64,000 bases of DNA from assembly GCA_023053545.1 (NCBI GenBank), contig JAKZAN010000004.1, positions 5,766,001-5,830,000 on the forward strand. Reading direction: 5' to 3'. Below the pieces are notes generated by a model. It saw only the letters and a list, made by a program, of their open reading frames with translations, had not been told where the DNA came from and did no database searches. Shown piece by piece: positions 6,893 through 35,683 of the stretch (positions are counted from its first letter, which is position 1; every line of letters starts with the position of its first letter). This DNA comes from Lepidurus packardi. Its lineage: Eukaryota; Arthropoda; Branchiopoda; Notostraca; Triopsidae. The position numbers were made by a program, and so were the translations under genes.

Positions 6893-7240
6893 TTTTGAAA
6901 AAGATGGCGAATCATGTGCCCTCAGGCATTTTCCAAATAGTTCGGCAAGTCCTAAACTGTTCAAACTTTTCCGTCGCTTCGGCCAAGTGTGTCTTTGTCA
7001 GCCTACTATTACGCTTAGGTAGGGAAATACTTTCTTAAATTAATAGGTCATTTAATTTGAATGACCTGCTCCGTTAACTGACCGAGGAGTTTAGAAGGGA
7101 TATCATGCTAAGAACCCTACGTAAGCGTAGCAGTAGGCTAGAATGACAGAGTTGGTCGAAGCGACTGAAAAGCGATGTCATTGGTCAATTTGCAAAGTTC
7201 GTACAGCGATCACTAGTTTGCTTACACAATAGTGCAGAAG
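6893..7240. mobile_element. fold-back (long inverted repeat) element, family A copy 1
   Basis: A non-coding inverted-repeat element. The left arm has CGTCGCTTCGGCCAAG, then CAGCCTACTATTACGCTTAGG-type sequence. The right arm returns as CCCTACGTAAGCGTAGCAG, TAGGCT, then TTGGTCGAAGCGACTG. Arms of at least 75 bp flank a core with its own GGTCATTTAA/GAATGACC inverted repeat. Related copies lie near 16500, 21128 and 35428. It sits between the IR pseudogene and the intact IR. Confidence 0.75.
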
Positions 7241-7441
7241 GAGCAATTTTAAGTCGACCTATACTTGAGACAAAACGGCTTATATAGGCGACATACGATA
7301 TTGGCCAGTACATTCATACAAGTGCGTATATTTACTTCTCAATACAGAAAAGATTGCTTTTGCCGGCAGTAATCGATACTTTTAACATAACAAGCGAAAC
7401 TGTAAGCTTTAATGGCTAATACACTACCGTAGTATTTTGAA

Positions 7442-10241: not shown

Positions 10242-10625
10242 GAAAGGAAAAAACGTACTAATCATGCGTGTAGCTACGTCTGCCCAGGTTAGTTGTCGTA
10301 TAGGAAATAGTGAACACGCAGCTTACAATTTTAATCCACGGAATTTGGGTTTATAGTGTGGGTTCAACTAGAAAATCTTCCTTGGATACTTACTCGAACT
10401 GCATTTTTCCACTGCAAGATTGTATTCTTACTTAGGTTTATTAGAAAGAATATGGCTCTCTTTTTGTGACAAAGATAAAATGCACAATGCAGAAAGTCAG
10501 ACTTGCACAATTTATGTTTGCCATAATGTATGAGGTTGGCTAAGAAGCAAATAGTGGTCGTATCAAGGAAACCACGCTACTTTTTCATGTATTTTAATCA
10601 TATTGCTTTCCTTGTGAGCTTGGAA

Positions 10626-11597
10626 AATGTTTGAAACCTAGCTTAGCTGAATTAATTAGATAATTCTAGAGAAGCCATTAAATTGTTCTCATGTGTATGT
10701 TGTGAATGTTATCGATAATGTTTTTTGTGGTGGACATTGTTTTCTCGAACTTGGGTGAATAATTATCATGCAGTCTCAGATAGCCCAAAAGGTATTCCTT
10801 TACGTTTGTGCATTATGACATTAGCATTGAGCCCTTAGCATCGGATATTCCTTTTTTTCTCTCTTCTTTATGTGTATGGTCAGTATAGGTTGAATTCCCT
10901 TAATTTATAAGTACGTTGCCATGGAAATCGTGATTAATCTCGAGAAGTAGGATATTTTTGCTTCGGTGAAAATCTAATTTACTTTTTGAAATTCATTAAA
11001 GTATTTTGTTTTTGTTTTTAAAAAAATAAATGCTCTGCCGTGAAATTGATTACAGCATCATTACCGTTAAGGAATTATTTTAAGAATCTTCCGGACTTTT
11101 TGCGCAAGAGTGTTTCTCCATTCCTCGTGCCATTTGTATAAAGGTAGTAGAATACATCGGTGCTTTAAAGTAAAGTAAGTGTGCGAGCCTAGTCACATCG
11201 GTTACTTCGCGAGAGCTTCGAGCCTTCGGCTTTGACCGCAGACGCCATCTCGCATTTTTATTAAAGTTTTGGAATGGAATGGAAAGAACCGCAAGTTAAA
11301 AGACAACCAGATAGATTAAACTTAATTTATTCTCACCTTATAATTCTGAGCAAACAATGTGTTTCCCTGCCACAATTGAGTAAGGCTAGTGGATTATTGA
11401 TTTGCTCGGAATGTTTTCCTTCTACCTGGATACTACAGTTCAAATCTTCGTTGACTCGTCGCTTTTTTTTTCTTACTAAAAAACTTTAACGTACAGTCTA
11501 GTTAGATTCAGTATTCTCATATTCTAGCGAGCTAATAATTATTTTCGCTATCCACATCCTACACAAAATTATTCTTCACAGTCTGATATTAGTATAA
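10626..11597. repeat. segmental duplication block, copy 1 (GR cluster flank)
   Basis: About 970 bp of non-coding DNA nearly matching 17,463-18,432 in the same orientation, from GAAACCTAGCTTAGCTGAAT through a TTACTTCGCGAGAGCTTCGA segment to the start of the GR-fragment repeat unit. Differences are scattered substitutions and small indels. A short open frame near 11,274 exists in both copies but has no recognisable features. Confidence 0.85.
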
Positions 11598-12111
11598 GGC
11601 TGACCAAGTGCCACAGTCCTTGTGCGGGCAAAGTCAGGCGGCTACTTCATTCAGACGGTCTTCGAACCAAACCACTGCCGACGCAATCCCGCATTTTTTC
11701 AAATTATGGCAATATTTTTTTTTGGAACCGCGACTTGACTTTCGACAAAATGACCTCAATTTCATTCACATTTGTCTAATATTAAAGCCTAAATTTTTTT
11801 TTTATCGTTTAATAAGACTATTGATTAGATTCCAGGTGTTTATTTCCACTATGAGATCCGAGTTCGAACCTCGCGATATGTTTTTCTTATGCAAATAGAA
11901 GTGGCTTTTTTTATACAAGATTCAAGCCCTTTAGATTGTAAAGGCGCTTACTTACCGGCATGAGATAAGATATTATAGAGCTCATTAAGAGGTTTAACAT
12001 ATTACATTCCGAATTGGAAAACCATCAATTTAACGCTGGTTACGATATCGGATTGATGTAATTTTAACGAACGGCTTCATAATTAACTTTGCGTCTAGAA
12101 TTGTTTTATGG

Positions 12112-12234
12112 AGCAAGACAATAATGTAAGTGACAATTAGATCCGTCATGGAGAGCAAAGTGCTCGTATTTATCGTAAACAAATTCAGAGCCGAAGCTGT
12201 CCATCCAATGCTGCGTACGTGATTCAAAAATGGT
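12112..12234 (-). pseudogene. gustatory receptor C-terminal fragment, array unit 1
   Basis: The minus strand reads FLNHVRSIGWTASALNLFTI, then LIVTYIIVLL, the last membrane helix of the two intact GRs nearby. The receptor's own stop is lost, so the frame runs on to about 12,030. Upstream the frame crosses the array junction and has no ATG, so it cannot be translated as a receptor. Confidence 0.8.
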
Positions 12235-12753
12235 ATTAAAGGCTGACCGAGTGCCACAGTCCTTGTGCGGGCAAAGTCAGGCGGCTACTTCATTCAAACG
12301 GTCTTTGAACCAAACCACCGCCGACGCAATCCCGCATTTTTTCAAATTATAGCAATATTTTTTTTTGGAACCGCGACTTGACTTTCGACAAAATGACCTC
12401 AATTTCATTCACATTTGTCTAATATTAAAGCCTAAAATTATTTTTTTATCGTTTAATAAAACTATTGATTAGATTCCAGGTGTTTATTTGCACTATGAGA
12501 TCCGAGTTCGAACCTCGCGATATGTTTTTCTTATGCAAATAGAAGTGGCTTTTTTATACAAGATTCAAGCCCTTTAGATTGTAAAGGCGCTTACTTACCG
12601 GCATGAGATAAGATATTATAGAGCTCATTAAGAGGTTTAACATATTATATTCCGACTTGGAAAACCATCAATTTAACGCTGGTTACGATATCGGATTGAT
12701 GTAATTTTAACGAACGGCTTCATAATTAACTTTGCGTCTAGAATTGTTTTATG

Positions 12754-12884
12754 GAGCAAGACAATAATGTAAGTGACAATTAGATCCGTCATGGAGAGCA
12801 AAGTGCTCGTATTTATCGTAAACAAATTCAGAGCCGAAGCTGTCCATCCAATGCTGCGTACGTGATTCAAAAATGGTATTAAAG
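12754..12884 (-). pseudogene. gustatory receptor C-terminal fragment, array unit 2
   Basis: Same ~40 codons as in unit 1, with virtually the same predicted peptide, ending through LIVTYIIVLLHKT without the normal stop. No upstream ATG. Confidence 0.8.
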
Positions 12885-13396
12885 GCTGACCGATTGCCAC
12901 AGTCCTTGTGCGGGCAAAGTCAGGCGGCTACTTCATGCAAACGGTCTTTGAACCAAACCACCGCCGACGCAATCCCGCATTTTTTCAAATTATAGCAATA
13001 TTTTTATTTGGAACTGCGACTTGACTTCCGACAAAATTACCTCAATTTCATTCACATTTGTCTAATATTAAAGCCTGAAATTATTTTTTTATCGTTTAAT
13101 AAGAGTATTGATTAGATTCCAGGTGTATATTTGCACTATGAGATCCGAGTTCGAACCTCGCGATATGTTTTTTTTATGAAACTAGAAGTGGCTTTTTTAT
13201 ACAAGATTCAATCCCTTTAGATTATAAAGGCACTTACTTACCAGCGTCAGTTACGTTATTATAGAGCTAATTTTAACATATTATATTAAAACTTGGAAAA
13301 CCATCAATAAAATCAATTTAACGCTGGTTACAATATCGGATTGATGTAATTTTAACGAATGGCTTCATATATAACTTTGCGTCTAGAATTTTTTTG

Positions 13397-13520
13397 GAGC
13401 AAAACAATAATGTAAGTGACAATTAGCTCCGTCATGGAGAGCAAAGTGCTCGTATTTATCGTAAACAAATTCAGAGCCGAAGCTGTCCATCCAATGCTGC
13501 GTACGTGATTCAAAAATGGT
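13397..13520 (-). pseudogene. gustatory receptor C-terminal fragment, array unit 3
   Basis: Reads LIVTYIIVLLQKN after the conserved NLFTINTSTLLSM stretch. It keeps the Gln that closes the GR signature (TY plus five hydrophobics plus Q), which units 1 and 2 have as His. No start codon. Confidence 0.8.
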
Positions 13521-14029
13521 ATTAAAGGCTGACCGAGTGCCACAGTCCTTGTGCGGGCAAAGTCAGGCGGCTACTTCATGCAAACGGTCTTTGAACCAAA
13601 CCACCGCCGACGCAATCCCGCATTTTTTCAAATTATAGCAATATTTTTATTTGGAACTGCGACTTGACTTCCGACAAAATTACCTCAATTTCATTCACAT
13701 TTGTCTAATATTAAAGCCTGAAATTATTTTTTTATCGTTTAATAAGAGTATTGATTAGATTCCAGGTGTATATTTGCACTATGAGATCCGAGTTCGAACC
13801 TCGCGATATGTTTTTTTTATGAAACTAGAAGTGGCTTTTTTATACAAGATTCAATCCCTTTAGATTATAAAGGCACTTACTTACCAGCGTCAGTTACGTT
13901 ATTATAGAGCTAATTTTAACATATTATATTAAAACTTGGAAAACCATCAATAAAATCAATTTAACGCTGGTTACAATATCGGATTGATGTAATTTTAACG
14001 AATGGCTTCATATATAACTTTGCGTCTAG

Positions 14030-14244
14030 AATTTTTTTGGAGCAAAACAATAATGTAAGTGACAATTAGCTCCGTCATGGAGAGCAAAGTGCTCGTATTT
14101 ATCGTAAACAAATTCAGAGGCGAAGCTGTTCGTTCAGTGCGGCGTACGTGAGGCAAAAATGGTATTAACGCAAAAGTTCCGTTAGCCCTTTTACATAATG
14201 AACCGAGGTGGCACCTCAAAGATATGACGTACTCTTGAGTCGCC
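14030..14244 (-). pseudogene. gustatory receptor with internal deletion and lost start codon, array unit 4
   Basis: This fragment preserves the origin of the array. On the minus strand the GR amino end (ATQEYVI, then CHLGSLCKRANGTFALIP) is fused directly to the carboxyl end (FLPHVRRTERTASPLNLFTI ... LIVTYIIVLLQ), deleting roughly 350 codons. The start ATG is also gone. Intact GR copy 2 has GAGTCGCC-AT-GAGTCGCC over the start on the plus strand, whereas here only one GAGTCGCC remains, the pattern of a direct-repeat slippage deletion. It is certainly non-functional as a seven-helix receptor. Confidence 0.88.
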
Positions 14245-14802
14245 TTTTTCGTTTATACGGAGGAATTATATAAATATGTACTCTTTCACATGTATCATTA
14301 CATTGTTCTTTCAACTCTTTTGCTGTACAATAAGTCGTATTTGAGCTGAAGAGATCCTGCGTACTGATCTTCATATATAGACTAACAGCAGAAAACAGTG
14401 ACCTAATTAGTCATGCATTTGGTTCAAGATGCGGAAGCAGAAGTACGTGTTTATGATAGCGCCCTAAGAGCCAACACACGAAAAAATGTTTATAGTATTT
14501 TTAAGATGCGTCAACAATTGTATTCCACAAAGTTATTAGACAATACCCCACGAAAGAACATTAGGAAATTACTAGGGTGGATTTGGAACAGAATTTACAT
14601 TACTATGACTTAGTTCTACTGCATTACACAGAAGGGGCAGCCTTTTCTTCCTATGTAGGATGTTTGGCGTGCAAATATAAACGCAATAACACAAGTGGTA
14701 TGTCTTCCTTTTCTCAACGTGTAATAGATAATCATCACTATAGGCGTGGTATTAGAACAAGTAAAGGGTAGCCCAGTGAAAAGGAAAACTTTCAAATGCT
14801 TA
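14245..14802. other. 3' flank of GR-A, duplicated at GR-B
   Basis: Non-coding sequence downstream of GR-A. From about 14,340 it matches 19,060-19,516 (shared TTTGGTTCAAGATGCGG and TTCCACAAAGTT blocks), so the duplication unit includes the GR and about 450 bp of its 3' flank. No gene seen. Confidence 0.6.
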
Positions 14803-16092
14803 TCAGCAGTGGGTTTCGAGCAAAACAATAATGTAAGTGACAATAAGACCGGCCATAGAAAGTAAAGTGCTACTATTTATCGTAAACAAACCCAAAGGAG
14901 AAGCTGCCCATTTCGTACTGCGTACATGATGTAAAAACGCTTGTAAAGTATAGATGTCATTCAGAGTAAGCTGGTTCCAACATCTTTTCATGGTGTTATG
15001 TACACTATTTTCGAAATCGGTTATTTGGATGGGTAACTGACTGAAAACGAAATTTCCCATAATGCGAGCAATAAACGTTTCGCCACTGGAAGAGTAACCG
15101 AGGTTGTCCGATTGACGCAGGGAAAGGAGGATGACGTACGTCAAACTGCAATTGCAAACAAAGCAACCAGCGTAACTGACAAAAAGTACTGCCCCAAAAT
15201 GTACGTCAGCTTGTTTTACGAGTTGACCCAAGCTCTGATAACGTTTCCACATGGTATCAATGGCGTCCTCGTAAGAAAACAATGATTTCTTCAGATCACA
15301 ATTTCGAGCTTTGCTTAACTTTGAAAACTCTTCCCAAGCCAGCTTATTCTCTCTGAAACGAAAAGGGTAGGCCAACTCCGTAGTACTGCCACAGTAATGG
15401 TTTACAATATGGTCTTTCTGAAATAGATCGTCGACGTCTTTTTCGAAGGCGTACTCTATTTTCAATAAAACGCAGGCTAAATTACGGTAGACGAAGCTCG
15501 ACACGATGTCCGCCATGTAGTTTAGTAATATGGAGTAGTAAAAAGCTAGTAATTCAACCATATAAACGAAGTAGGAGGCCGGTAGCAAGTCTTGTAAAGC
15601 TTTGTGATTAAGTGGAAAATGCGTACCATTTACCCATTTGGAGTATGCAACAAAGGCAGCGATAACGAAGATTACAACTAAGCTGAAAGCGTTGACTGTT
15701 TTGTAGTAGCGAAGAGTGACTTTTTGGTTCCTGATGTAATTATCGAGAGGCTCTTCCAATTCTTTCCATTGCTGCAAGAATTGGTGCAAAGACTTCCGTT
15801 TTCTCATTAAGGTGACGAAGAAAATGACAGCTAGAGGGTAGAGCATATACCGGTTTACCGTCTCTATTAATATTTCGATGGGCCTAGCGGAAATGATCTC
15901 GACGAACAGCAAGTAGAATCCAAGTGCTGTTGAGCTGCACAGAATGATTCCGCTGATAAGAACCAGGGCGTAGCCTAAGTATGAGAAGTTGGCTTCGTAA
16001 TCCCAAGGCATTAGTGCAAAAGTTGCAGTAGCCACTTTATTTATTGGACCGATGTGGCGTCTCAAAGGTATAACGTACTCTTGAGTTGCCAT
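14803..16092 (-). CDS. gustatory receptor GR-A (seven-helix chemoreceptor)
   Basis: Single-exon 429-aa member of the arthropod gustatory receptor family, a ligand-gated ion channel with inverted seven-helix topology in chemosensory neurons. Starts MATQEYVIPLRRHIG. Hydrophobic helices are spread along the protein (for example YALVLISGIILCSSTALGFY, VVIFVIAAFVAYS and FVSYAGCFVCNCSLTYVILL), and it ends AGLIVTYIIVLLETHC, the GR signature helix with Glu in place of the usual Gln. Its paralogue GR-B at 19,517-20,839 is very similar, and nearly identical over the region encoding the later helices. GR-A lacks 11 residues (33 bp) that GR-B has before SQLPIQITDF. A TATA-like box lies about 90 bp upstream. 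Length and intactness suggest function; the ligand is unknown. Confidence 0.92.
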   Translation of the reverse strand: MATQEYVIPLRRHIGPINKVATATFALMPWDYEANFSYLGYALVLISGIILCSSTALGFYLLFVEIISARPIEILIETVNRYMLYPLAVIFFVTLMRKRKSLHQFLQQWKELEEPLDNYIRNQKVTLRYYKTVNAFSLVVIFVIAAFVAYSKWVNGTHFPLNHKALQDLLPASYFVYMVELLAFYYSILLNYMADIVSSFVYRNLACVLLKIEYAFEKDVDDLFQKDHIVNHYCGSTTELAYPFRFRENKLAWEEFSKLSKARNCDLKKSLFSYEDAIDTMWKRYQSLGQLVKQADVHFGAVLFVSYAGCFVCNCSLTYVILLSLRQSDNLGYSSSGETFIARIMGNFVFSQLPIQITDFENSVHNTMKRCWNQLTLNDIYTLQAFLHHVRSTKWAASPLGLFTINSSTLLSMAGLIVTYIIVLLETHC

Positions 16093-16180
16093 GAGTCGCC
16101 TTTTTATTTAATGTTTTGTTCAAAGAAATTCTAACATCGACTGCTGTCGATTTGTCACTTCGCTTGACTATCCCATGTTT

Positions 16181-16190
16181 AGCTATATAG
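16181..16190 (-). promoter_or_regulatory. TATA-like box upstream of GR-A
   Basis: CTATATAGCT on the minus strand, about 90 bp before the GR-A ATG, within upstream sequence that is well conserved with GR-B (equivalent box at 20,931-20,940). Confidence 0.4.
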
Positions 16191-16499
16191 CCTGAAATAT
16201 GGGCTGAATGGAGCATGCGTTCAACAGTGAACGTAAGATCAAAAGTAGATACATTTTGTGTTGTACTTTTAGGTTGTACTTCTAGTTGCACTTCTTCGAA
16301 TGTTCTAAGTATTGCTTCTATTGTGCATTTGACAAAGAGTAAACCGTGTTTTATGTAGAAAAGTATTCCATACCAGTCTTCATCTATGTTAAGGTTCATT
16401 TTGAGAATTAAATGCCAATATTCTTTAACACATTAGCGTTTACCGTAACAATTAAAGAATAACTGACCACAGTATAGGTTTTCCTTTATATTGGAATCC

Positions 16500-16712
16500 G
16501 TAATCTTGAAAAAGATGGCGGATCATATGCCTCCAGGCACTTTCTAAATCGTTCGGCAAGTCCTAAATTGTTCGAACTTTTCCGTAGTTTCGACCAGTCC
16601 TGTCTTTTTCAAACGACCACTTCGCTTAGGTAGGGAAATTTTCTTAAATAGGTGGGTCATTTAAGTGAGTGACCTGCTCCATTAATTGACTTGGGAGTTT
16701 AGAAGTTTAATA
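16500..16712. mobile_element. fold-back element family A, copy 2 (truncated)
   Basis: Left arm and core of the element (CTTCGCTTAGGTAGGGAAAT, GGTCATTTAAGTGAGTGACC, GGGAGTTTAGAAG). The right arm is replaced by a GAGTTAATAG minisatellite. It lies upstream of GR-A, as copy 3 lies upstream of GR-B, so it travelled with the GR duplication. Confidence 0.7.
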
Positions 16713-17285: not shown

Positions 17286-17462
17286 GAAGTAATCTTTTGG
17301 GGGAACCGCGACTTGACTTACAACAAATTGTCCTCAGTTTCATTCACATTTGTCTAATATTTTAGCCTAAAATAATCTGCTTTGGATATTATCTTTTATT
17401 CGAAGAATACAGGTCAAAGCTTCGTTGACTTGAAGCTTTTTTCTTTTATTACAGTTTTATAA

Positions 17463-18935
17463 AATGTTAGAAACCTAGCTTAGCTGAATTAATTAGAGAA
17501 TTATAGAGAAGCCATTAAATTGTTCTCATGTATGTGTTGTGAATGTTATCGATAATGTTTTTGGTGGTGGGCATTGATATCTCGAACTTGAATGACTAAT
17601 TATCAAGCAGCTTCCGATAGCCCAAAAGGTATTCCTTTACGTTTGTGCATTATGACATTAGCATGGAGCCCTTAGCATCGGATATTCCTTTTTTTTCCTC
17701 TGTTCTTTATGTGTATGGTCAGTATAGGTTGAATTCCCTTAATTTATAAGTACGTTGCCATGGGAATCGTGAGTAATCTCGAGAAGTAGGATATTTTTTC
17801 TTTGGTGAAAATCTAATTTACTTTTTTCAAATTCATTAAAGTATTTTGTTTTTTAAAAAAGTAAGTGCTCTGCCGTGAAATTGATTACAGTATCATTACC
17901 GTTAAGGAATTTTTGTAAGAATCTTCTGGACTTTTTGTGCAAGAGTGTTTCTCCATTTCTCGTGCCATTTATATAAAGCTAGTAAAATACATCGGTGCTT
18001 TAAAGTAAAGTAAGTGTGCGAGCCTAGTCACATCGGTTACTTCGCGAGAGCTTCGAGCCTTCGGCTTTGACCGCAGACGCCATCTCGCATTTTTGTTAAA
18101 GTTTTGGAATGGAATGGAAAGAACCGCATGTTAAAAGACAACAAGATAGATTAAACTTAATTTATTCTCACCTTATAATTCTGAGCAAACAATGTTTTTC
18201 CATGCCACAATTGAGTAAGGCTAGTGGATTATTGATTTGCTCGGAATATTTTCCTTTTACCTGGAGACTACAGTTCAAACCTTCGTTGACTCGTCGCTTT
18301 TTTTTTCTTTCTAAAAAACTTTAACGTACAGTCTAGTTAGATTCAGTATTCTCATATTCCTGCGAGCTAATAATTATTTTCGCTATCCACATCCTACCCA
18401 AATTATTTCTCACAGTCTGATGTTAATATAAGGCTGACCAAGTGCCACAGTCCTTGTGCGGGCAAAGTCAGGCGGCTACTTCATTGAAACGGTCTTTGAT
18501 ACCAAACCACCGCCGACGCAATCCCGCATTTTTTAAAATTATAGTAATATTTTTTTTGGAACCGCGACTTGACTTCCGACAAAATGACTTCTATTTCATT
18601 CAGATTTGTCTAATATTAAAGCCTAAAATTATTTTTTTGGCTTTTTAGGTGTAGCCTATGTTTCCGCCATGAAATCCGAGTTCGAACCTAGCAATGGGCA
18701 ACATTCTTTTGTGAAAATACACTTAGCTCTTTTAAACAAGATTCAAGCCCTTTAATTTGTAAAGGCACTTATAAGCGTGATTAATTATTATAGAGCTCAT
18801 TCAGAGATTTAATATATTGGATTCCGACTTGGAAAGCCAATTAAAATCAATTTAACGCTGCTGGTTATAATATGGGATTGGTGTAATTTTAATGGATGGC
18901 TTCTTTTCTAACTTTTCATCTAGAATCAAGCTTCT
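17463..18935. repeat. segmental duplication block, copy 2
   Basis: Matches 10,626-11,597 and continues into one partial copy of the GR-fragment array unit (18,433-18,935), ending near TCTAGAATCAAG. A piece of the same unit (GGAACCGCGACTTGACTT) also lies just before it, at 17,295-17,380. No intact gene inside. Confidence 0.85.
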
Positions 18936-19516
18936 TGTATATTCACGGTGTTATTTTAACTAAAAAGTTTAACTAAAAAACAATTAATAAGCCTAACCTA
19001 TCTTCACATATTAGTTTACGCGCACAGCTGATATCCCCAGAATTAAGCATCAGACAAATACGTTCTGATGTTCATATAAACTAAAAGCAGAAAAACAGTT
19101 ACCTAATTATTCATTTGGTTCAAGATGCGGGAGCAGAAGCGGAAATAACTGTTGAAGTACGTGTACGTATTTATGATAGCTCCCGAAGTGCCAGCGTATG
19201 AAGAATGTGTGTAGTATTTATTAGATGCATCCACAACTGTATTCCACAAAGTTCTTAGACATACACCACTAAAGAACATTAAAAAATTGCTAGGATGGAT
19301 TTGGAACTGAATAAAATTTACAATGACTTGCTATAGTATTCGACAGAAAGGGACAGGCTTTTCGCCCCACGTTGGACATGTTTGGCGTGCAAATACAAAC
19401 GCAAGAATACAAGTGTTATTTCTCCGTTTGTCCAATGCATAATGGATAATCATCACTAGGCGGCATTAGATCAACTAAAAGGTAGCTCAGTGCTACGAAA
19501 AACTTTCAATTGCTTA
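18936..19516. other. 3' flank of GR-B, duplicated at GR-A
   Basis: From about 19,060 it matches the 3' flank of GR-A near 14,340-14,802, with more indels. No gene or other element recognised. Confidence 0.5.
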
Positions 19517-20839
19517 TCAGCAGTGGGTTTGAAGCAAAACAATAATGTAAGTGACAATAAGACCGGCCATAGAAAGTAAAGTGCTACTATTTATCGTAAA
19601 CAAACCCAAAGGCGAAGCTGCCCATTTCGTATTGCGTACATGTTGTAAAAAGGCTTGTAAAGTAGAGATGTCATCCAGAGTAAGCTGGTTCCAGCATCTC
19701 TTCATGGTGTTATGTACACTATTTTCGAAATCGGTTATTTGGATGGGTAACTGACTGCACATGCTATTTACAAACATAATTTTAATCATGAAAACGAAAT
19801 TTCCCATAATGCGAGCAATAAACGTTTCGCCACTGGAAGAGTAACCGAGGTTGTCCGATTGACGCAGGGAAAGGAGGATGACGTACGTCAAACTGCAATT
19901 GCAAACAAAGCAACCAGCGTAACTGACAAAAAGTACTGCCCCAAAATGTACGTCGGCTTGTTTTACGAGTTGACCCAAGCTCTGGTAACGTTTCCACATC
20001 GCATCAATGGCGTCCTTGTAAGAAAATATTGCTTTCTTCACACCGCAACTTTGAGCTCTGTTTAACTTTGATATCTCTTCCCATGCCAGCTTATTCTCTC
20101 TGAAAATAAAAAGGTCTGCCAACTCGGTAGTACTGCCACAGTTATGGTTTCCAATACGGTCTTTCTGCAATAGATCGTCGACATCTTTTTCGAAGGCGTA
20201 ATCTATTTTCAGTAAAACGCAGGCTAAATTACGGTAGACGAAGCCTGCCACGATGTCCGCCATGTAGTTTAGTATTATGGAGTAGTAAAAAGCCATTATT
20301 TCAAGAATATAAACGAAATAGGAGGCCGGTAGCGAGTCTTGTACAGCTTTGTAATTCAGTGGAGATTTCGGATGTTTTGCCCAGTTGGAGTACGCAAAAA
20401 ACGCAGAGATAAAGAAGACGCTAATTAAGCAGAAGACATTAACTATTCTGTAGTAATGAAGAGTGACTTTCTTGTTCCTGGTGTAATTATCGAGCGGTTC
20501 TTCCAATTCTTTCCATTGCTGCAAGAATTGGTGCAAAGACTTCCGTTTTCTTATCAAGGTGACGAAGAAAATGACAGCTAGAGGGTAGGGCATAAACCGA
20601 TTTACCGTCTCTGTTAATTCTTCGATGGGCCTAGAGGAAATAATCTCGACGGAGAGCACGTAGTATCCAAAAGCTGTTGAGCTGCACAGAATAATTCCGC
20701 TGAAAACAACCATGGCGTAACGTAAGCATGAGAAATTGGCTTCGTAATCCCAAGGCATTAAGGCGAAAGTTCCAGTAGCCAGTTTATTTATTGGGCCGAG
20801 GTGGCGTCTCAAAGGTATAACGTACTCTTGAGTCGCCAT
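19517..20839 (-). CDS. gustatory receptor GR-B (seven-helix chemoreceptor)
   Basis: Single-exon 440-aa gustatory receptor starting MATQEYVIPLRRHLG and ending AGLIVTYIIVLLQTHC, with the full GR signature (TY, five hydrophobic residues, Q). Helices occur throughout, as in GR-A. Relative to GR-A it carries 11 extra residues (MIKIMFVNSMC) after GNFVF, at about residue 352, in the loop before the last helices. The predicted loop between helices 4 and 5 (CGSTTELADLFIFRENKLAW) differs most. It is the best candidate for the ancestral, fully functional copy because it keeps the signature Gln. Confidence 0.92.
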   Translation of the reverse strand: MATQEYVIPLRRHLGPINKLATGTFALMPWDYEANFSCLRYAMVVFSGIILCSSTAFGYYVLSVEIISSRPIEELTETVNRFMPYPLAVIFFVTLIRKRKSLHQFLQQWKELEEPLDNYTRNKKVTLHYYRIVNVFCLISVFFISAFFAYSNWAKHPKSPLNYKAVQDSLPASYFVYILEIMAFYYSIILNYMADIVAGFVYRNLACVLLKIDYAFEKDVDDLLQKDRIGNHNCGSTTELADLFIFRENKLAWEEISKLNRAQSCGVKKAIFSYKDAIDAMWKRYQSLGQLVKQADVHFGAVLFVSYAGCFVCNCSLTYVILLSLRQSDNLGYSSSGETFIARIMGNFVFMIKIMFVNSMCSQLPIQITDFENSVHNTMKRCWNQLTLDDISTLQAFLQHVRNTKWAASPLGLFTINSSTLLSMAGLIVTYIIVLLQTHC

Positions 20840-20930
20840 GAGTCGCCTTTTTATTTAACGTTTTTTTCAAATAAACTCGACAAACATCGACTGCTGTCGA
20901 TTTGTCACTTCGCTTGACTATCCCACGTTT

Positions 20931-20940
20931 AGCTATATAA
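20931..20940 (-). promoter_or_regulatory. TATA-like box upstream of GR-B
   Basis: TTATATAGCT on the minus strand, about 95 bp before the GR-B start. It aligns with the box of GR-A within a shared upstream block of roughly 180 bp. Confidence 0.4.
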
Positions 20941-21127
20941 CCTGACATATGGGCTGAATGGAGCATGCGTACAACAGTGATCATAGGATCAAACGTAGAT
21001 ACAATGTTACTTGTCACTTCAAGGTTCGGATGTTCAAGTTATTACTTGTATTTTGCGTTCGGCAAAAAGTTAACCATATTTTGCGTAGAAAACTAATCCA
21101 AAGTAATCCACATCAGTCTTCATCAAA

Positions 21128-21500
21128 CGGCCTTCTTAAAAAAGATGGGCGTTTGTGGGGAGTTGTGTGCCCTCGGGCACTTTCTAAATCTTTCGTCACG
21201 TCCTAAGTCGTTCGAACCTTTCCGTCGCTTCGACCAATCCTGTCTTTTTCCAGCCTACTACTACGCTTAGGTAGGGAAATACTTCCTAAACGCTTTCTTA
21301 AATGAGTAGGTCATTTACTTTGGTTGACCTGCTATTTAATTGACTGGTGAGTTTAGAAGGGATATCTTGTTGAAACTATACGTAAGCGTAGTAGTTTGCT
21401 GAAAATGACAGCATAGGTCAGCCGACTGAAAAGCAATGTCATTGGTCAATTTGCGAAGTCCGTATAGCGATCAGTACTTTATTTACTGTACGTAATAATG
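21128..21500. mobile_element. fold-back element family A, copy 3
   Basis: Near-complete element: CAGCCTACTACTACGCTTAG on the left and TACGTAAGCGTAGTAG on the right, with AAAGCAATGTCATTGGTCAA beyond the right arm, the segment also present (inverted) at the left end of copy 4. Confidence 0.75.
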
Positions 21501-21534
21501 CAGAACGAGGCGAGGCTAAGTCTAAACCTGGGCA

Positions 21535-34118: not shown

Positions 34119-35427
34119 CTTAACCGTGGTCTACTTCTTTGTCTGATTTCTTATTTTTCTTTGTCAAAAAACTTCTTTAACAAACCACTTAACTTAAATC
34201 TGTGAGCAAGTCACCTTCTAAACTAAAACGCCGTACAAACACAAATTTCTGCACTTTTTTAGGGTACTGGGGTTAGCCAGTATAAACAGTTGTGTCTGCC
34301 AGTAACAATGGTGCGTGCCTAATTAAAAGCAAAGCTGGAGCGTTGCGAAGCAACTCCTGATTGCTTGGACGGTGGAGCGCAAGCAGATTGGGATTCTTCA
34401 CAGGTTTATCGCAGGTTGTCGCCTTTTTCCGTCTTAGCGAGGATAAACCTGTTCTCCTTCTTTCGCTGTGTATTATGTGGGTTAAAATAGGTCGCCGTTC
34501 AAATTTAGCTAACAGGCATACCGTATGCAATCCCAGGTATCTACCAAGGTCTTTCCTATTGTGCAAGTTTCGGTTCGCTCTTTTTCCGCTTATTATAAGA
34601 AGGAGGAAAATAGCGGTGATCACGATCTACCTACACTTTAGAGTATCCGGGAATAACCTTTTACTTTCAAGGTTTGCACAAAACGTGTTGGCGTCGTGAC
34701 TTCGCTGCTTCTGCCACCCACCAACATGACATTTGCAAATTCGAGGAAGTCAAGTTGCAATCAGGCAGTTCTTGCTAAAAGGTAACAGGGAACTGTTGCG
34801 GGTATGTAGTACTAATTTAGGGAGCACAAGGAGTTACAAGAGGAAGAAAAAGGATGAGTAGCTGTTGTCAGCACAGGTGTACTGATGTCGCTCCACACTT
34901 GTGTGTGTATGTGTCGGGTACATACATGCTGTATGTTTTTCGTTCCTGTCCAGGACATGACGCTCAATGGGATGGGTGGGTTCGTCGCTCCATTTCCCGT
35001 CCCCCTTTCCTGATATTCTCAGCTCAACTCGATGTATCTTTATGTTTGCGTGTAGTTTTTCTATTTATTATATTACCTGCATGTAGATGTAATGGAACCT
35101 ATACGGTCTAGTTTGCGAACGAGTGTTCAAGACACATTTATGCCACTAGTCATGTCGTGAGTAAAGAAAAAAGACCGCCAAACGCCACGTTTTATTATTT
35201 TTTTGGCGAAAAGATACACCTAGATGCAATATATAGCATGCGTTTTCTGGCAAAAGACGCTTTCATGCATGTTTTCTAAACAAATGTTAAAGGACCATTT
35301 CAAACTGATAAAATGCATAGTATTTTAATCGGTTATTAGAATCACGCTTTCGGATATTAGAATCAATTTTAAAAGAATCTTCACAAGTACAGTAACGAAA
35401 CTACAGTAGTTATTGCTACATGGACTT
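34119..35427. other. upstream region of the pickpocket gene
   Basis: No coding, RNA or repeat feature recognised. Open frames at 34,273-34,699 on opposite strands mirror each other and lack support. Confidence 0.4.
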
Positions 35428-35634
35428 TGCAGATTGACCAATGACATTGCTTTTACCACGTTTTGACCAAACCTGTCGTTTTCAGCCTACTACTACGCTT
35501 AGGGGAAATCCCGTCTAAACTCCTCAGTCAAACAAGTGAGCCGGTTATTCAATTGAATGACCAGTTCCTTTAATTGACTGGGAAAATTAGAAAGGATTTC
35601 GTGTTGAGAACCCTACCTAAGCGTAGGAGTAGGC
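35428..35634. mobile_element. fold-back element family A, copy 4
   Basis: Left end GATTGACCAATGACATTGCT, then CAGCCTACTACTACGCTTAG. The right end is CCCTACCTAAGCGTAGGAG, AGGCT, giving a clear terminal inverted repeat of about 20 bp over a total of 160 bp, plus an extended left arm. It abuts a transposase remnant. Confidence 0.75.
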
Positions 35635-35683
35635 TTCAAAGGCGCACTGTTAGTTGTATTTTAGGCGTGTGTGTATGTAAAAA

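Follow-up and report, generated by a model that had tools for sequence, protein, structure and literature searches.

The tandem array of four units found in the window (the whole stretch of 64,000 nucleotides analysed here, from contig JAKZAN010000004.1 of Lepidurus packardi) is likely to have arisen by amplification of a vault RNA (vtRNA) gene, in which the tail of an internally deleted gustatory receptor (GR) pseudogene was carried along as a passenger. Seven vault RNA-like elements are present at the locus, all on the plus strand, 78–79 nt in length and ending in T5 or T6; one of type b is found in each unit, one of type b in block B, and two of type a in blocks A and B (Table 1). Four of these seven RNA genes were most likely produced by tandem duplication, and the novelty, judged from sequence, is most likely a vault RNA family member in an unexpected lineage, an arthropod.

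Table 1 Features of the array and of its surroundings. Positions are those of the window; Vault, Rfam RF00006.
Feature	Position	Strand	Basis or remark
Tandem array of four units	11598-14168	+	BLAST of unit 1, unit alignments
Vault RNA-like, type a, block A	11181-11259	+	79 nt, T5; Rfam Vault 31.1 bits, cut-off 34
Vault RNA-like, type b, unit 1	11622-11699	+	T6; Vault 31.2 bits, under cut-off
Vault RNA-like, type b, unit 2	12265-12342	+	Vault 35.7 bits, over cut-off 34
Vault RNA-like, type b, unit 3	12908-12985	+	Vault 35.1 bits, over cut-off
Vault RNA-like, type b, unit 4	13551-13628	+	Vault 35.1 bits, over cut-off
Vault RNA-like, type a, block B	18016-18094	+	Vault 31.1 bits; 0/79 differences vs 11181-11259
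Vault RNA-like, type b, block B, single copy	18456-18534	+	Vault 35.3 bits, over cut-off (match 18456-18533)
TATA-like word TATAAGG, at -29 of unit 1 RNA	11593-11599	+	Putative motif
TATTAAA at unit junctions	12234-12240, 12877-12883, 13520-13526	+	Putative motif
B-box consensus GTTCGAACC, 162-163 bp past unit RNAs	11862-11870; also 12506, 13149, 13792	+	Putative role
B-box consensus GTTCGAACC, past block B b-type RNA	18680	+	Putative role
B-box consensus GTTCAAATC/GTTCAAACC, past a-type RNAs	11438, 18273	+	Putative role
GR tail remnant, unit 1	12111-12230	-	BLAST and translation
GR tail remnants, units 2-4	~12754-12873, ~13397-13516, ~14040-14159	-	BLAST and translation
Decayed GR N-terminal stub joined to unit 4 tail	14161-14244	-	Similar to 16007-16090 and 20754-20837; in-frame join
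Uninterrupted GR ORF, block A	14803-16107	-	Pfam 7tm_7 3.7e-16
Uninterrupted GR ORF, block B	19517-20854	-	Pfam 7tm_7 1.1e-22
Block B, copy of block A (10624-16370); a and b RNA genes present once each	17461-21100		BLAST in window

Array and duplicated blocks

A BLAST search of the window with unit 1 returned four head-to-tail units of 643, 643, 643, and 642 bp (11598-12240, 12241-12883, 12884-13526, and 13527-14168), in agreement with the original prediction of four such units of about 640 bp. Identity to unit 1 is 100, 98.1, 90.8, and 89.7% for units 1–4, respectively. Units 3 and 4 differ in 10 aligned columns, one of which is a terminal gap, and 8 of the 10 lie within the last 43 columns; the two pairs (units 1 and 2 vs. 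units 3 and 4) are diverged by ~9–10%. The recent expansion read earlier from the near-identity of units 3 and 4 holds in part. The array was not among the repeats given by Tandem Repeats Finder for the window (longest period, 500). Because it sits within a 12.87-Mb contig and the pairs are ~9–10% apart, the entire array is unlikely to be a plain assembly duplication; for units 3 and 4 by themselves this could be the case.

Blocks A and B are segmental duplicates of each other by BLAST within the window. Related repeats occur around the GR cluster (6915-7243, 16506-16705, 21166-21509, 35399-35635), some of them inverted, and possibly represent a mobile element.

Vault RNA-like elements and their signals

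The Vault family of Rfam is a 99-position model with a curated gathering cut-off of 34 bits. It was matched from model position 1 to 99 in all seven elements, four of which reach the cut-off (35.1–35.7 bits), the other three scoring 31.1–31.2 bits. In the first Rfam scan (15 kb, 4227 families) Vault ranked first, with an E of 0.0018 for both a-type elements and an E of 0.46 for the next family; matches to families other than Vault were all far under their cut-offs. Scores for type b were obtained from slices of ~106 bp given to cmscan. The b-type copies were missed in Rfam scans of longer stretches (5/5, 4/4, and 1/1), presumably because of filtering. Control slices from elsewhere in unit 1 gave no Vault match (0/2). 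Scaled by us to the whole genome for RF00006 alone, E would be ~0.003 for type a and ~0.0002 for the b-type element of block B. The sequence just within each unit also aligns with the a-type elements outside the array. The flank in the units had been described as non-coding; instead, each holds a plus-strand, RNA-gene-like element with a Vault match.

Over the length of the model, 33–36 central positions are replaced by 5–7 nt in these 78–79-nt elements. When the seven elements are made into a covariance model of their own, it recovers all seven, which are its training set (69.5 bits for the a-type element of block A), the next best match in the window scoring 12.1 bits. A resemblance to the microRNA mir-210 was considered; no mir-210 was present among the cmscan matches listed, and this identity was set aside.

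Types a and b fold alike: the outer stem is of 7 bp, and inside it follow the GUC/GAC and then the CGG/CCG stems. In the terminal 7-bp stem 100% of cells are paired in the five distinct rows, with one two-sided A-U to G-C exchange. Covariation is weak, since it concerns this one pair, shuffles match it in 97/500 cases, and two inner b-type pairs are unformed in type a. Folding z-scores of five plus-strand copies range from -1.3 to -3.7 (the remaining two have repeated sequence), with -0.6 for a longer slice of unit 1; the fold by itself is not proof. Between the blocks, the left arm shows 93 differences in 1176 aligned columns (7.9%) and the a-type element none. Identity is unbroken over at most 109 columns (11151-11259), made up of 30 bp upstream plus the a-type element and stopping exactly with the final terminator T; with differences placed randomly, P is 0.0096 for such a longest run and 0.0012 for one given clean window of 79 columns.

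A TATA-like word lies upstream of all five b-type elements, TATAAGG being found also 29 bp upstream of the b-type RNA of block B, and a terminator-like T5–T6 closes all seven elements. The TATTAAA at the junctions arises at the joint between GR remnant and RNA gene, so that in units 2–4 the RNA genes have the remnant as their 5' flank. A box A-like sequence is found in all elements, weakly in type b. For the internal box B, read by eye, 8 of 9 consensus letters are kept in type a and in unit 1, and 7 of 9 in units 2–4 and in the b-type element of block B, where the core C is changed.

These signals bear on a neutral reading, by which unequal crossing-over in the GR cluster would have spread b copies that are no more than inert vtRNA pseudogenes. 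Unit 1 has drifted (31.2 bits, one G-C turned G-U), the core of box B is altered in units 2–4, and the b element, with 6/80 columns differing between blocks, is no better kept than the flank (7.9% overall); but units 2–4 and block B retain the stem, the TATA-like word, T6, and scores over the cut-off, and we hold inertness of the copies to be unlikely. It is more improbable still that these Pol III genes belong to another or a new small-RNA family, resembling vault RNA only through a tRNA-like box A and a terminal stem. The match is best in the box A region GCGGYUACUUC with the 3' stem and poor in both the central loop and box B, and the elements show little covariation; against this, Vault scored above every other family, no tRNA or Y RNA was among the matches listed, ARAGORN found no tRNA in the window, the curated cut-off was passed by 4/7 elements, and a gene for major vault protein (MVP) is present in the genome.

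Within 250 bp past the terminator, exactly one same-strand GWTCRANNC is found for each of the seven elements, at 145–179 bp; the whole window holds 18 plus-strand matches, counting those seven. This is mild evidence, because the duplications leave two independent cases. In Saccharomyces cerevisiae, SNR6 (U6) has an extragenic B box downstream of the gene. The present elements resemble it in having a TATA-like box and, beyond the terminator (here at 145–179 bp), a B-box consensus; the RNA is a different one, and the role of the box here is putative; by analogy, an extragenic B box possibly serves these RNA genes. The fuller scenario, in which a vault RNA cluster kept in arthropods was recently expanded in a GR locus, is transcribed by Pol III via a TATA box together with an extragenic B box, beyond the terminator, that replaces the decayed internal box B, and has gained a GR pseudogene as 5' flank with each new copy while a TATA-like word was retained at the duplication junction, is put forward tentatively, and we lean against it as a whole.

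DNA searches of the 108.6-Mb genome with unit 1 and a-type queries reported copies of the element at this locus only (counts are lower bounds); the remaining matches of unit 1 concern its GR-tail part or a stretch at 17302. A dispersed SINE would require many scattered copies, and with those reported confined to one locus the element is not an abundant one. A genome-wide search with RF00006 gave no matches and is uninformative, since the known copies were missed too (49 of 6871 candidates scored); in control genomes, 7/14 gave RF00006 matches, with E up to 10 and none over the cut-off. The stretch 17302-17376, ~75 bp and lone, is 85–90% identical to unit positions 127-196, just past the RNA, and is without an adjoining element. 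Many COX1 fragments with TGA codons were seen on contigs C1, C2, C4, C5, C6, C21, and C38, which are likely nuclear mitochondrial DNA insertions; stop-free COX1 on contigs C52, C214, and C43 may be bacterial.

Gustatory receptor remnant

On its minus strand each unit carries the final ~41 GR codons, at unit positions ~514-633 (~120 of 643 bp), 79–80% identical by BLAST to the 3' ends of the two uninterrupted GR ORFs; that each unit holds solely a 3' fragment of a receptor had thus been seen correctly. The frame across TYIIVLL is open in 4/4 units, also as predicted and without a start, but this GR part lies antisense to the strand as drawn, the native stop is lost as well, and the frame reads on. 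An intact GR has a full 7tm_7 ORF with start and stop, and the units have ~41 codons with neither native start nor native stop; openness is expected of so short a frame, copied recently. The stub past unit 4 is in frame with the tail of that unit and has lost its start Met, and tail and stub together are, by their sequence, an internally deleted GR pseudogene. In the intact GR of block B, an insertion of 11 codons (MIKIMFVNSMC) relative to the first GR could be genuine or could reflect a tiny intron that was mis-read.

Compared with the intact GRs, the unit 1 and unit 4 tails have a dN/dS of 0.23–0.27, and the two intact GRs compared with each other across the same 41 codons have one of 0.20; the low values of the tails fit divergence at a time when the parent gene was still coding. 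Changes between the tails of units 3 and 4 amount to 7.5 nonsynonymous vs. 0.5 synonymous. The tail is the least diverged part among units 1, 2, and 3 (3/133 for units 1 and 3, 0/133 for units 1 and 2); units 1 and 2 show four differences around the RNA element, and units 3 and 4 differ mostly in the GR tail. The RNA elements of units 3 and 4 are identical to each other, and single-base differences set those of units 1 and 2 apart from them. We read the pattern of divergence as exchange between units, and it does not favour the RNA.

The original prediction held the receptor tail itself to be what was amplified, and amplification of the tail for its own sake is not upheld: the tail is ~120 of 643 bp, its stop is lost, and the same unit carries a vault RNA-like gene. 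That the tail is nevertheless a cargo, as a source of antisense or small RNA against the intact GRs or of a short peptide, is highly improbable, for although its frame is open in every unit, its divergence is lowest among units 1–3, and its identity to the intact GRs is ~79–80%, it is without native start or stop, the stub past unit 4 is without start Met, the changes between units 3 and 4 are mostly nonsynonymous, and the RNA gene of the unit reaches the Rfam cut-off in 3/4 units.

For the expansion of a vault RNA gene with the receptor tail as passenger, we infer an order of events as follows. An ancestral block would have held two plus-strand vtRNA-like genes (a and b) beside a minus-strand GR, and its duplication would have given blocks A and B. 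In block A, a GR adjoining gene b would then have lost its middle, and the segment from the TATA-like box of b through the pseudogene tail would have been copied to four units. The duplication junctions would lie at similar TATAA/TATTAA words, by which every extra copy would have retained a TATA-like word ~30 bp ahead of its RNA. Transcription by RNA polymerase III would yield RNAs of ~79 nt ending at T5–T6, and these would join vault particles of two MVP proteins, probably via a TEP1/TROVE protein.

Vault proteins and known vault RNA systems

Vaults are huge, widespread particles. Of nine reported matches to PF01505, eight were over the cut-off, all at C4:4955005-4959723, and the ninth was below it and elsewhere. 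This stretch, read by eye, holds two tandem copies of MVP; domain matches (Vault, Vault_3, Vault_4, and MVP_shoulder) were obtained for six pieces, and one piece matches a major vault protein in the PDB with an E of 6e-74. A LEA-like repeat protein is apparently located beside the tandem MVP genes (C4:4952000-4961900, by eye). A TROVE gene (C2:11383532-11384584, with only weak PDB matches) and the sole reported DUF4062 match (C2:11362443-11362760, its frame crossing four stops) lie ~21 kb apart on the same strand. TEP1_N was not found and no NACHT match was reported on C2; the arrangement of TROVE and DUF4062 is as expected for TEP1, and the two matches may tentatively be taken together as this gene. 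TEP1 is a vault RNA binding protein, according to an excerpt of PMC12547018. The best TROVE match, on the small contig C225, contains nine stops and is possibly foreign to this animal; it was set aside. Elsewhere, 20 of 59 reported NACHT matches crowd near one contig end (C1:2772-581027) and, many of them lying in ~600-aa frames, appear to form an expanded NLR-like family.

With RF00006, which has the human VTRNA1 cluster as type, the elements share both model ends, the terminal stem, the GCGGYUACUUC box A region, and the T-run. Like VTRNA1, they form a small cluster beside a tandem protein-gene family, proto-cadherins there (excerpt of PMC7904556) and GRs here. They differ from it in their length of 78–79 nt, the shorter central loop, the weak internal box B, the neighbourhood, and the inclusion of a GR pseudogene tail in the array unit; the vault RNA promoter is given in the same excerpt as an internal Pol III type 2 promoter with box A and box B. 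Tandem GR arrays are known in arthropods, and intact GRs with adjoining GR pseudogene debris are found here likewise, but the repeated unit contains no GR gene.

Vault RNAs were known in 2009 from deuterostomes and two lophotrochozoan lineages (excerpt of PMC2770079, which is also our source for the scope of Stadler et al. 2009); they are called highly conserved across eukaryotes in an excerpt of PMC13404743 and are reported in trypanosomes in that of PMC12547018. MVP was formerly reported absent from arthropods; the 2024 survey, as excerpted from PMC11219742, gives MVP in many ecdysozoans but none in the groups of crustaceans to which Daphnia and Artemia belong; no vault RNA could be identified there in the salmon louse, a crustacean with MVP. 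None of the papers listed in literature searches described an arthropod vault RNA in its listing or excerpts, and priority is not established. As vault RNAs are known as distantly as trypanosomes, an arthropod vault RNA would fill a gap and overturn nothing.

The locus provides an example of a passenger gene fragment that can be mistaken for the amplified feature. With vtRNA candidates and tandem MVP in one genome, a seed sequence becomes available for vtRNA searches in other arthropods, and the candidate cluster lets one ask whether vault RNA and MVP are retained or lost jointly.
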